A stretch of 64,000 bases of DNA from Kitasatospora cinereorecta. Its GTDB lineage: Bacteria; Actinomycetota; Actinomycetes; Streptomycetales; Streptomycetaceae. Location of the stretch: the NCBI RefSeq assembly GCF_024172095.1, contig NZ_JAMZDX010000002.1, positions 1,116,001-1,180,000 of the forward strand. The letters are read 5' to 3'. Positions 26,282-32,081 of this stretch are shown here, piece after piece (position 1 is the stretch's first letter; each line of letters starts with the position of its first letter). The translations under genes were made by a program, and so were the position numbers. The notes under the pieces are model-generated. The model was given only the letters and a program-made list of their open reading frames with translations. It did no database searches and was not told the DNA's origin.

Positions 26282-26722
26282 TCAGATCCAGAGCAGGATC
26301 GAGGCGATGGTGACGGCGGCCAGGTAGGACTCGCGGGTCTTGTCGTAGCGGGTGGCCAGGCCACGCCACTGCTTGAGCCGGTTGAAGCATCGTTCGACGA
26401 CGTTGCGGAGCTTGTAGGCCTGCCGGTCGAAGCCGGTCGGCTGGCCGCCGCGAGAGCCCCGGTTCAGACGGTTCAGTACCTGGTCGGCGCGTTCGGGGAT
26501 GGTGTGTCGGATGCCGCGTCTGCGCAGGTAGGTGCGGATCTTCCGGGAGCTGTAGCCCTTGTCGGCGATGACGTGGTCGGGTCGGGTTCGTGGCCGGCCC
26601 GGCCCGACGCGGGGGACACGAATGTCGGCCATCACGGCCTCGAAGCGGGTGCAGTCGTTGCGGTTGCCGCCGGTCAGGACGAAGCCGAGCGGGCGTCCGC
26701 GTCCGTCGCAGGCCAGGTGGAC
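26282..26722 (-). pseudogene. IS5/IS427 transposase orfB, separated from orfA
   Basis: This is the C-terminal half of the transposase: VHLACDGRGRPLGFVLTGG, HVIADKGYSSRKIRTYLRRR (second Asp in ADKGY) and AYKLRNVVERCFNRLKQWRG (catalytic Glu with the R/K signature). It is joined upstream to IS110 sequence and a TAG at the boundary. Matching pieces across the insertion rebuild GLSTK-VHLACDG without a gap. Inactive because of the insertion. Confidence 0.85.
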
Positions 26723-26734
26723 CTAATGGGAACC

Positions 26735-27080
26735 GAAGCCGGCGGATCGTAGACCCGTCGGCTTGTCTTGGGTGGTGATCAGTCGGCACCCGGTCAGAGC
26801 CACAAGATGGACCATGGCGGCCCACGGCACGCCTTCACCAAGAGCTGGCCTCCGGGTGCCGGCCGATCACCACCCAAGGCTGCGGTTGACCGAATACTTG
26901 TGGTCCGAGCCCTCCGCAGGGTGCACCTCTCACCTCACCGGGACGCCTCCGAGCTCCTGCACAGACTGAGGCCCCTGCGGTCAGCTGGGGTCACGAACGA
27001 CCAATCGGATGACGGGCCCGGAGCCCTTCCATTAGGGAGTCGCGTGCCTCCGCACCGGGCCTTGACCAGCGGATACGCAC
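26735..27080 (+). ncRNA. predicted bridge RNA of the IS110 element
   Basis: Four guide segments appear in the order known for bridge RNAs. TGGACC (26808-26813) equals the left target strand beside the core. CACCAAG (26836-26842) is the reverse complement of CTTGGTG, the right target. ATCGGATG (27004-27011) equals the right end of the element (28361-28368). CCATTAG (27029-27035) is the reverse complement of CTAATGG at its left end. The first pair sits inside a long stem formed by 26767-26791 with 26854-26878 (23 of 25 bases pair); a GGGC/GCCC hairpin lies between the second pair. The exact transcript ends are estimates. Confidence 0.75.
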
Positions 27081-27107
27081 ATCGGACGAAGGGATGTGAG
27101 AGCGCCC

Positions 27108-28349
27108 ATGAGGGTGTTCTGCGGGGTCGACTGGGCCAGTGACCATCACGACGTCGCCGTGGTCGACGGCGACGGCAAGCTCCTCGGGCGGGCGCGGATC
27201 GGCGACGACGCGGCCGGCCTGCAGCAGCTGTTCGACCTCCTGGCCGAGCACGGTGACAGCCCCGATGACCGAATACCGGTGGCGATCGAGACCTCCCGCG
27301 GCCTGCTGGTGGCCTGTCTGCGGGCGACCGGCCGCCCGGTCTACGCGGTCAACCCGATGGCCGCGGCCCGCTACCGCGAGCGGCATAGCGTGTCGCGCAA
27401 GAAGTCCGACCACCTCGACGCGATGGTGCTGGCGAACATCCTGCGCACCGACGCCGACGCGCACCGCCAGCTGCCGGCCGACAGCGAACTCGCTCAGGCC
27501 GTCGCCGTCCTGGCCCGCGCCCAGCAAGACGCCGTCTGGGACCGCAACCAGGCCGGCAACAAGCTCCGCTCCCACTTGCGCGAATACTTCCCCGGCTACC
27601 TCGCCGCCGTCGAGTCCCTCAAGGGCGGTCTCACCTCGCAGTTGGCCCGCACCCTGCTGGCCGCCGCACCAACCCCGGAGCAGGCCGCCCGGCTCACCCG
27701 CACCCAGCTGAGGGCCGTGCTCAAGCGGGCCGGCCGCCAGCGCGGGATCGACGATGAGGTTGAGCGTCTGCACGCCGCTCTGCGGGTCCCGCAGATGCGC
27801 CACCTTCCGCTGGTCGAGAGGGCGATGGGGCGCCAGGCCGCGGCGCTGCTGGGCAAGTTCGAGGCGGCCTGCACCGCCGCGGACGAGCTCGCTGAGGCAT
27901 CGGTCGAGCTGTTCGAGCAGCACCCTGACGCGGCGATCATAACCAGCTTCCCGGGCCTGGCGGCCCTGAGCGGCGCCCGGGTGCTGGCCGAGATCGGCGA
28001 CGACCGCACCCGCTTCGCCGACGCCAAAGCACTGAAGGCCTACGCCGGATCAGCGCCCGTCACCCGGGCCTCCGGCAAGAGCCGCACCGTCATGGTCCGC
28101 CGGGTCAAGAACCAGCGCCTGGCCGCAGTCGGCTACGTCTGGGCCTTCGCCTCCTTGCGGGCGTCACCCGGCGCCAGGGCCCACTACGACCGACGACGCG
28201 ATGCCGGCGACCGCCACACCTCTGCCCAGCGCAACCTCTACAACCGCTTCCTGGGCTGCCTCCACCACTGCCTCACCACCGGCACGACCTACAGCGAGAG
28301 CACCGCCTTCCCCGCCCCGCCGAAGATCGAACTGGCCATCGCGGCTTGA
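27108..28349 (+). CDS. IS110-family DEDD transposase (recombinase)
   Basis: A 413-residue recombinase. The N-terminal RuvC-like DEDD domain shows FCGVDWASDHH, VAIETSRG and KKSDHLDAMVLAN. A coiled-coil middle follows, then the Tnp domain with IITSFPGLAALSGARVLAEI and AYAGSAPVTRASGKS, the latter holding the catalytic serine region. ATG 27108 begins at the first conserved strand; GTG 27096 is an alternative. The stop is 20 bases from the element's right end. All signature motifs are present and the frame is intact, so it is probably active, working with the RNA encoded upstream. Confidence 0.95.
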   Translation: MRVFCGVDWASDHHDVAVVDGDGKLLGRARIGDDAAGLQQLFDLLAEHGDSPDDRIPVAIETSRGLLVACLRATGRPVYAVNPMAAARYRERHSVSRKKSDHLDAMVLANILRTDADAHRQLPADSELAQAVAVLARAQQDAVWDRNQAGNKLRSHLREYFPGYLAAVESLKGGLTSQLARTLLAAAPTPEQAARLTRTQLRAVLKRAGRQRGIDDEVERLHAALRVPQMRHLPLVERAMGRQAAALLGKFEAACTAADELAEASVELFEQHPDAAIITSFPGLAALSGARVLAEIGDDRTRFADAKALKAYAGSAPVTRASGKSRTVMVRRVKNQRLAAVGYVWAFASLRASPGARAHYDRRRDAGDRHTSAQRNLYNRFLGCLHHCLTTGTTYSESTAFPAPPKIELAIAA

Positions 28350-28371
28350 CCCTTAACGTCATCGGATGTCT
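28346..28371 (+). promoter_or_regulatory. right half of a circle-junction promoter
   Basis: TTGACC (28346-28351) is followed by 17 bases and then TCT at the element boundary. In a circular form the next bases would be AAT (26725-26727), giving TCTAAT. The joined ends would thus make a near-consensus -35/-10 pair with ideal spacing, reading into the bridge RNA and transposase. Confidence 0.7.
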
Positions 28372-28789
28372 TGGTGCTCAGTCCGCCACGGGATCGGCGA
28401 AGGGCGTGATCACCCGCTTCGTCCCGGTCGACTGCCCCTTTTTTGCCGCCCGCGGCGTGCTGGTGGGCCCGCACGATCGTGGAGTCGATCGACACCAGCC
28501 AGTTGATGTCCCCGGTCGCGTCCTTTTCCGCCTGGACCTGCCGCAGCATGCGCGAGAACGTGCCGTCCAGCGCCCACCTGCGGAAACGTGTGTACAGGGT
28601 CTGCCAGGACCCGTACCGCTCGGGTACGTCGCGCCAGACCGACCCGGTACGCAGCTTCCACACGATGCCGTTCAGCACCACCCGGTCATCGCTGCGTGGC
28701 CGACCCGCGGTTCCCGAACTCGGCAGGAACCGCGAGAGCACAGCCCACTCGGCATCGGAAAGCTCATGACGGCGTATCACGCCCGACAT
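28372..28789 (-). pseudogene. IS5/IS427 transposase orfA, separated from orfB
   Basis: The N-terminal half: MSGVIRRHELSDAEWAVLSR, VLNGIVWKLRTGSVWRDVPE, GSWQTLYTRFRRW and the first catalytic Asp in SIDSTIVRAHQHAAG. The native frame ends at GLSTK, where the IS110 element is inserted. Read-through would add a short meaningless tail. A normal element joins this to orfB by frameshifting. Confidence 0.88.
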
Positions 28790-30450: not shown

Positions 30451-32081
30451 GGCTCTGTCCCGTAATCGGTGGTAACGAAGGGTGACGGTTCTCGTTGGCA
30501 TGGCATGCGTGATGTCAACGAGCTTGTGAGTGTGGTCTTTTCGGGACTGTCGGCCCTCGTCGTCGAGGGTGTGGTGGACGAGGGCGAGGCCATCCGGGTG
30601 TCCGCACGGACCCGGGACGAACCGGTGCCGTGCCCGATGTGCGGGCAGCTGACGGGACAGGTGCATGCCTTCCACGGGCGGGTGGTGGCGGATGTGCCAG
30701 TGGACGAGCGTCGGGTCGTGGCGTCGGTGCGGGTCCGGCGGATGGTCTGCCCGGTCCTGGGCTGCCCGCGGCAGACGTTCCGCGAACAGGTCCCCGGCCT
30801 GATCGAACGCTACCAGCGGCGCACGCGCCGTCTCGCCGACCAACTCGGTGAGATCGTCAAGGAGTTAGCGGGCCGGGCGGGCGCCCGCCTCTCCGGCGCA
30901 CTGGCCTGCGCGATCTCCCGCTCGACCGCCCTGCGCGTGCTCATGCGCCAGCCGGTGCCGCGGCTGCGCGTCCCGCGCGTGCTCGGTGTCGACGACTTCG
31001 CCCTGCGCCGGCGTCAGCGTTATGCCACTGTGCTCATCGACGCCGAGACCGGCGAGCGGATCGACGTCCTGCCCGACCGCACCACCCAGACCCTGGTCGC
31101 GTGGCTGCGCGAGCACCCCGGGGCCGAGTATGTCTGCCGCGACGGCTCCGGCTCCTACGGCGAGGCGATCCGCCAGGCCCTCCCGGAAGCAGTGCAGGTC
31201 AGCGACAGGTGGCACCTGTGGTCCAACCTGTGCGGCAAGGTCCTGGCCGAGATCCGCTCCCACGCCGCCTGCTGGGCCACCGCCGTGAACCCCGCCCGGT
31301 CCGGAGGCGTACGCGAGCAAACCACCCGCGAACGCTGGCAGCAGGTCCACAAGCTGCTCGGCCAAGGCGTCGGGCTGCTCGAATGCGCCCGCCGCCTCGA
31401 CGTCGCGCTGAACACCGTCAAGCGGTACGCCCGCATGAAAGAGCCCACCGCAGAGCGCCGGGCACCCCGCTACAAGCCCACGCTGGTCGATCCCTACCGC
31501 GACTACCTGCGCCGACGCAGGGCCGAGGACCCCGCGGTGCCCGTCACCCACCTCCTGCGCGAGATCAAGGAGCTCGGTTACACCGGCAGCGCGAACCTCC
31601 TGGTCCGCTACATCACCCAGGGCCGCGCCGACGGCGACAAGCCCGTCACCACCCCACGACGCTTCGCCCGCCTCCTCCTGACCCGTCCCGAGAACCTGCG
31701 CGACAAGGACACCACCCTCCTGAGGGAACTCACCCAAAGCTGTCCAGAGCTGAGCGAACTCGCCCTTCTCGCCCGAAAGTTCGCGCAACTGCTGACGCCG
31801 GCCGAGGGCAACGACGCCAAGCTCACCGACTGGATCACGTCAGTTCGCTCCGTCGACCTGCCCCACCTGCACTCCTTCGCGAACGGCCTGGAACTCGACC
31901 GGGCCGCCGTCGACGCCGGACTCACCCTCCCGTTCCACAACGGCCGCACCGAAGGAGTCAACACGCGAACCAAACGGATCATGAGGCAGATGCACGGCCG
32001 AGCCGGGTTCCCCATGCTCCGCCACCGCATCCTCCTCCGATGATCACCACAGAGCGCTACCACCGATTACGGGACAGAGCC
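30451..32081 (+). mobile_element. complete ISL3-family insertion sequence
   Basis: Perfect 24-bp terminal inverted repeats begin GGCTCTGTCCCGTAATCGGT at 30451 and, inverted, at 32081. The element is flanked by identical 8-bp direct repeats GTTGATCA (30443-30450 and 32082-32089), the target duplication size of ISL3. Length 1631 bp with one intact transposase gene. The perfect ends and duplications imply a recent insertion. Confidence 0.95.
30505..32043 (+). CDS. ISL3-family transposase
   Basis: A 512-residue transposase. The N-terminal zinc ribbon is PVPCPMCGQLTGQVHAFHGR with CPVLGCPR. The helix-turn-helix and DDE core follow: RVLGVDDFALRRRQRYATVL (first Asp), EYVCRDGSGSYGEAIRQALP (second Asp), and near the C-terminus LPFHNGRTEGVNTRTKRIMR with the catalytic Glu. 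ATG 30505 is preferred to earlier starts that would overlap the terminal repeat. Full family length; no frameshift. Confidence 0.95.
   Translation: MRDVNELVSVVFSGLSALVVEGVVDEGEAIRVSARTRDEPVPCPMCGQLTGQVHAFHGRVVADVPVDERRVVASVRVRRMVCPVLGCPRQTFREQVPGLIERYQRRTRRLADQLGEIVKELAGRAGARLSGALACAISRSTALRVLMRQPVPRLRVPRVLGVDDFALRRRQRYATVLIDAETGERIDVLPDRTTQTLVAWLREHPGAEYVCRDGSGSYGEAIRQALPEAVQVSDRWHLWSNLCGKVLAEIRSHAACWATAVNPARSGGVREQTTRERWQQVHKLLGQGVGLLECARRLDVALNTVKRYARMKEPTAERRAPRYKPTLVDPYRDYLRRRRAEDPAVPVTHLLREIKELGYTGSANLLVRYITQGRADGDKPVTTPRRFARLLLTRPENLRDKDTTLLRELTQSCPELSELALLARKFAQLLTPAEGNDAKLTDWITSVRSVDLPHLHSFANGLELDRAAVDAGLTLPFHNGRTEGVNTRTKRIMRQMHGRAGFPMLRHRILLR

Follow-up and report, generated by a model that had tools for sequence, protein, structure and literature searches.

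An IS110-group insertion sequence of Kitasatospora cinereorecta with a predicted bridge RNA, and relatives with tandem target loops

The element and its insertion site

We analysed a 64,000-nucleotide stretch of the Kitasatospora cinereorecta genome (contig NZ_JAMZDX010000002.1; hereafter the window), in which an IS110-group insertion sequence interrupts an IS5/IS427-type transposase gene, and we compared its predicted guide RNA with those of its relatives. The recombinase gene of the element (tnp) lies on the plus strand at 27108-28349 and encodes 413 aa from an ATG, or 417 aa from the GTG at 27096, with the domains PF01548 (1.9e-36) and PF02371 (9.5e-14) of the IS110 family. Upstream of it is a long, non-coding left end (LE) of 385 bp (26723-27107, plus strand), which holds the putative bridge RNA region and whose ends are conserved in relatives. 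The right end (RE) measures only 20 bp, whereas IS1111-group elements carry their bridge RNA in a long right end downstream of tnp.

Only a single full copy of the element was found in the host genome (8.64 Mb, 9 contigs). Two short stretches of contig 8, L003 and L004, are uninterrupted copies of the same IS5/IS427-type gene (...GGTGGACCTTGGTGCTC..., with the site GGTGGAC-CT-TGGTGCTC) and match the outer flanks of the element with an overlap of 2 bp, CT. The 2-bp overlap identifies CT as the core and AATGGG... and ...ATCGGATGT as the ends of the element; there is no further target duplication. The core copies lie at 26723-26724 and 28370-28371, so that the element begins two bases before position 26725, where a preliminary description of this DNA had placed its start. 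The insertion point and the IS427-type target named in that description are now fixed by the two uninterrupted copies rather than by inference alone.

The interrupted gene is on the minus strand. Its N-terminal half (DUF4096) occupies 28372-28789, within an open reading frame at 28289-28789, and its C-terminal half (DDE_Tnp_1) occupies 26282-26722, with an open reading frame at 26282-26635; the codons STKVHL span the junction. Excision with one CT was said to restore the frame, and at the junction codons (GGLSTKVHLAC) it does. Restoration over the whole gene is not proven, because a T-run at about 28436-28441 has six T compared with five in the intact copies; this run may matter for the reading frame of the interrupted gene or for frameshifting.

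Guides, fold and circle junction

The reading of the left end as the template of a bridge RNA is supported by four guides on the plus strand, in the order left target guide (LTG), right target guide (RTG), left donor guide (LDG) and right donor guide (RDG), which agrees with IS621. All four words of the preliminary description were recovered at their positions. TGGACC (26808-26813) is part of the LTG AAGATGGACC (26804-26813), which matches the left target CAGGTGGACC, including the core C, at 8/10, and CACCAAG (26836-26842) is part of the RTG TCACCAAG (26835-26842), which matches the right target CTTGGTGC at 7/8. The LDG ATCGGATG (27004-27011) is identical to the right end at 28361-28368, and the RDG CCATTAG (27029-27035) is the reverse complement of CTAATGG at 26723-26729. 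Target matches were scored out of 18 (10 letters for the left guide, 8 for the right), and the window element reached 15/18 in a free-gap search; a hairpin-anchored matcher missed the left guide (10/18).

RNAfold pairs 26765-26793 with 26852-26880, which reproduces the long outer stem described earlier and delimits a target-binding stem-loop (26765-26880, plus strand), and the fold of 26732-27060 has a z-score of -5.0 against 100 shuffles. The predicted fold also pairs 26808-26810 of the left guide with 26838-26840 of the right guide, a weak three-pair clash with free guides. Between the target and donor loops lies a conserved, loop-like central domain (26899-27000, plus strand; alignment A4, consensus fold). 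In the window and in relatives this domain is built like a guide module, with a hairpin, variable flanking letters and AGAC; we rejected it as a further target loop because it was not the site of a strong own-target match in the comparison of 37 targets described below. An Rfam scan of the window gave no match at the gathering score.

The relatives examined were the best 80 of 141 from named genomes, plus others from further genomes and plasmids; 84 distinct rows entered the guide analysis, one of which (L055) has a mis-called end. An early wide-gap guide scan was too permissive and was superseded by later guide searches. The donor-loop pattern was present in 20 of 394 family genomes, and no relatives were found in viral contigs by protein search or in phage records by DNA search with the donor region. 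Three further loci (L011, L095 and L051) have a donor loop and a tnp start with no recognisable left terminus and are apparently 5′-truncated.

Relatives having other ends carry changed donor guides, the opposite of the outcome that the preliminary description had named as refuting. For the right donor guide, the reverse complement was found 140-750 bases upstream of tnp in 64/78, compared with 5/702 for other words. For the left donor guide, a donor block could be recognised in 78 relatives, and 56 of these show 7 or more of its letters again beside a right-end CT, in varying words (ATCGGATG, ATGGGGTG, GTGGGATG, CATGAGAT and others). Structural covariation was also seen, both in the second target loop described below and in the central and donor region, in whose fold 13 of 39 base pairs carry two-sided changes in one or more of the 20 sequences.

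Joining RE to LE creates a candidate promoter of the IS621 type. All 35 distinct junctions contain TTGAC plus one base, a spacing of 17 or 18 bases, and TCTAAT; in a control at random recombinase-gene positions, a -35 word at 5/6 or better at any of five spacings occurred in 20 of 2600 trials. The TCTAAT half was fixed by element selection, which required CTAATGG and ATCGGATG-N-CT. In the window, the -35-like word TTGACC (28346-28351, plus strand) overlaps the recombinase stop codon, so that part of its conservation may be coding; TCT (28369-28371, plus strand) forms the first half of the -10-like word, to which the circle would add AAT (26725-26727).

Target loops and insertion sites of relatives

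The LE before the donor guide ranges from about 210 to 700 bases across relatives. We counted repeated target units with a script detector (hairpin, right guide and tail) that was trained on these same sequences, at cut-offs of 8.3 and -22, adding the own-target loop where it was undetected. Of 44 LE clusters, 25 have two to four target loops ahead of a single donor loop (19 clusters with one unit, 20 with two, 3 with three and 2 with four), so that a single target loop is not the rule across the clade. This count uses the first member of each cluster; it becomes 26 when any member is counted and 22 when every member is required. Because the detector has a background of about 0.5 per kb (0.49 hits/kb at 8.4 and -20 kcal, measured on 325.9 kb of flanking and coding DNA, part of it redundant), a few second units will be false. 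In the L065 and L076 groups the second loops are questionable. L142, which is the L136 element with a duplication, forms its own cluster.

The donor loop scored as the same unit type as the target loops in all 15 left ends examined, and the outer stems of target loops vary greatly in length between elements (alignment A1). The left end of genome G340 is folded by RNAfold into two separate stem-loops, in each of which the guide pair is largely unpaired around a small hairpin. When 13 elements were aligned over the stem of loop 2, 95.4% of cells were paired, compared with 36-52% when the alignment was slid, and 13 of 32 pairs showed changes on both sides. Multi- and single-loop elements are mixed in the recombinase tree, with 10 changes of loop number, at least 8 of them forced by well-supported branches (118 of 500 shuffles were as low); loops therefore seem to come and go. 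The tree was used only for this mixing; its L189 branch has 10 changes per column and is apparently in the wrong frame.

Individual left ends have further peculiarities. In L142 (G340), a 53-bp piece from the first bases through the loop-1 hairpin is duplicated and joined at a CT inside loop 1; the arrangement resembles recombination of the donor end into the guide DNA of the same element. Between target loops 1 and 2, L105 has a reading frame of about 90 codons (L105:1799-2068) without a Pfam match, and L054 has one at the corresponding position.

In three genomes, copies that differ by no more than one base sit at different targets, each matched by a different loop; this matching, like the ends, the core, the guides and their covariation, is read directly from the DNA. 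Trebonia kvetii contains just two copies that we found, L063 and L064 (1845 of 1846 bp identical): L063 lies at CTGGTACCC|CT|TGTCC and is matched by loop 1 of 4 (17/18), and L064 lies at GACATCAC|CT|TCGAC and is matched by loop 4 of 4 (16/18). Genome G722 contains L223 and L224, with 1707 of 1708 bp identical and the same guides; L223 is at GGCCCACC|CT|CTTTCC (loop 1, 17/18) and L224 at GAGTACGC|CT|TGTCC (loop 2, 16/18). The three copies in G340 (L136, L142 and L143) are identical over 1696 bp; L136 and L142 are at GGCCCACC|CT|CTTTCC (loop 1, 17/18) and L143 is at TTCACCCC|CT|TGACC (loop 2, 14/18). By a simple binomial, the chance per case is about 1e-7 to 2e-4. A looser fourth case is given by L189 (loop 1, 15/18) and L159 (loop 3, with 8/10 for the left side only); the left ends of these two relatives are 96% alike, and their loops 1 and 3 have the same guides.

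These copies bear on an alternative in which the bridge RNA is of the ordinary kind, only one target loop per element works and the additional hairpins of relatives are dead relics of past duplications. The window element, with one loop and a remnant, is compatible with such relics, as is the fact that most multi-loop elements have a known target for one loop only, which also counts against the working of several loops. However, nearly identical copies within a genome are matched to their targets by different loops, and the stems of loop 2 covary although 10 of the 13 aligned elements match their own targets through loop 1; we therefore regard relics as an unlikely explanation. It is very improbable that multi-loop copies were moved by homologous recombination or segmental duplication and merely look targeted: some copies do share flanks, such as four with the same junction letters on plasmid NZ_CP109328, but in the three key genomes the flanks differ, every junction centres on CT and the two flanks of each copy match a loop of that copy.

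That target guides follow targets was further examined by comparing own with foreign targets. We reduced 51 rows to 37 distinct two-sided targets, leaving out rows without a CT-starting right flank and removing L053, L215, L218 and L222 by hand. Of the 37 own targets, 23 reached 15/18 or more, 28 reached 14 or more and 33 reached 13 or more; in 1122 comparisons with dissimilar foreign targets the numbers were 11, 43 and 158. Relatives elsewhere thus mostly change both target guides, in line with the check proposed in the preliminary description. Most of the 11 foreign matches of at least 15 are the other loop of a multi-loop element; they include L063 with the L064 target and the reverse, L115, L143 and L224 with the L043/L050 targets, L043 with the L224 target, and L056 with the L115 target. 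L010 (protein 88% identical) has the same guides as the window element and a TGGAC-CT-TGGTG site in other surroundings, and L110 (protein 58%) has the guides TAGATGGATC and CCACCAAG at the site AGATGGAC-CT-TGGTGG. Chance similarity in GC-rich DNA is a very unlikely explanation for the set as a whole: foreign targets do reach 13/18 in the proportion given, so that a single weak match means little, but own targets exceed foreign ones widely at 15/18 and the right donor words covary.

Several observations weigh against the proposal that guides and loops direct insertion. Four of the 37 targets, all of one target group (L065, L131, L177 and L073), score below 13; L076 reaches 13 with a match outside its loop; and the right flanks of L042 and L086 misfit the in-register right guide, L042 being counted among the 23 although it is out of register on the right. 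Six elements of which the left side only is known (L106, L107, L109, L174, L184 and L185) reach 6-7/10. L143 is the weakest in-genome case, its 14/18 being a score that foreign targets also attain (43/1122). The control for the left donor guide is only fair, because foreign-class pairs match in 146 of 1720 cases. The window loop itself is atypical, with 21 nt between its target guides compared with 13-18 in most relatives.

A Pfam scan of 36 flank reading frames, most of them surely non-coding, from 21 elements found transposase-type domains in the junction frame of seven elements, the window element being an eighth. These are the IS110 domain (L136, L196 and L078), DDE_Tnp_4 (L063), Transposase_mut (L064, 1e-57), DDE_Tnp_1_4 (L105) and DUF4096 (L040). 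DDE_Tnp_4 lies near L056 and helix-turn-helix domains near L138, in frames that stop short of the junction. L071 is in an AAA ATPase gene, and L110 is flanked on one side by a VTT-domain gene. Not all targets are transposases, because the multi-loop element L045 (Streptomyces sp. NBC_01669) is inside a zinc-binding dehydrogenase gene; L184, a second copy of this element, matches it exactly over 804 bases before it breaks off. The scanned flank frames of L143, L223, L224, L189, L115, L194, L054, L108 and L101 gave no Pfam match. Two frames of the L224 target were without one, one of them also without a BLAST match to the halves of the window transposase, and this target was called IS5-type solely from GDKAYSS read by eye. 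Junction-spanning codons look conserved at several insertion sites, namely STKVHL (window), ADKGYQG (L063), GDKAYSS (L224), GKKINGRK (L040) and LLEAHPLS (L136 and L223), which we take to be motifs conserved in the families concerned.

The window element has one intact target loop and one donor loop. A short hairpin that RNAfold places before them (26736-26764, plus strand) aligns with both arms of loop 1 of L189 and L159, the guide part being absent, and is probably a stem left over from a first target loop that has lost its guides by deletion. This alignment points to a multi-loop ancestor, and the window element is apparently a reduced descendant, in which one module is intact and only the stem of another persists.

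Two neighbouring genes are recorded here for completeness. An ISL3-type transposase gene (PF01610) lies at 30469-32043 of the window, about 2 kb downstream of the element, and a relative on the Streptomyces goshikiensis plasmid NZ_CP115939 (L190) is near a cas2e gene.

Proposed mechanism and relation to known systems

We consider it very likely that the window holds an IS110-group element with a bridge RNA in its left end, and that it belongs to a clade in which one to four repeatable target modules precede one donor loop, different modules being able to direct different insertions. For transcription, pairing within the complex and the working of each loop, we infer the following course. The element would be excised as a circle, in which a promoter formed where RE meets LE is predicted to drive transcription. 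The donor loop would pair with the circle junction and the target loop with both strands of a CT-centred site, here the STKVHL codons of the IS5/IS427-type transposase gene, after which the recombinase would join donor and target. With one to four target modules, each with its own guide pair, before the single donor loop, different modules could direct different insertions, and a single donor loop combined with alternative target loops would fit a recombinase dimer on each loop.

On its own, the window element is a further member of the known bridge RNA kind; the larger result is the tandem loops of its relatives. It is probable, with somewhat less assurance, that elements of this actinobacterial IS110 clade carry dual-guide target modules in arrays, independent of one another and served by one common donor module, which give a single element a repertoire of addresses, several of them at conserved transposase codons of unrelated insertion sequences (DEDD IS110, DDE_Tnp_4, Mutator, DUF4096 and DDE_Tnp_1_4, by Pfam). 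Modules would be gained and lost, with the window element reduced, and the layout, which resembles that of TIGR systems, could be an evolutionary link. If one donor loop indeed serves several target loops, a natural system already performs multiplexed, RNA-addressed insertion, which would offer engineers a multi-target layout and explain how IS110 elements change target. Mobile elements would then favour the transposase genes of rivals, at codons that the rivals are unlikely to change.

The published accounts that we found give a bridge RNA one target loop, and the array layout would depart from that. In the available text of Durrant et al. 2024 (PMC11208160), the IS621 bridge RNA has one target loop and about 177 nt, and a junction promoter is reported; the terms "tandem", "multiple target" and "two target" are absent from that paper. 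The clade shares with IS621, as described there, the guide order LTG-RTG-LDG-RDG, the location in the LE, the CT core, the RE-LE junction as donor, the junction promoter (predicted in the clade) and the DEDD recombinase. Unlike IS621, for which REP elements are the sites given, its left ends have one to four target loops and a conserved central domain, and several of its sites are transposase genes. No report of tandem target loops was found in the passages of the bridge RNA and seekRNA literature accessible to our search.

According to the accessible portions of Siddiquee et al. 2024 (PMC11187229), the seekRNA of IS1111/IS110 elements has 70-100 nt, with a longer possible precursor, and directs site choice. 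A short guide RNA would likewise set site choice in the present clade; in contrast, IS1111 elements hold the RNA region downstream of tnp, and those portions do not mention tandem target modules. The TIGR-Tas systems, for which a common origin with IS110 is proposed in the text available to us (PMC12045711), have tandem dual-guide units that each pair with opposite DNA strands. The likeness concerns the array layout only, as TIGR systems use Tas proteins with a Nop domain and lack a donor unit; if the tandem loops work as proposed, the suggested tie between IS110 and TIGR arrays becomes testable.
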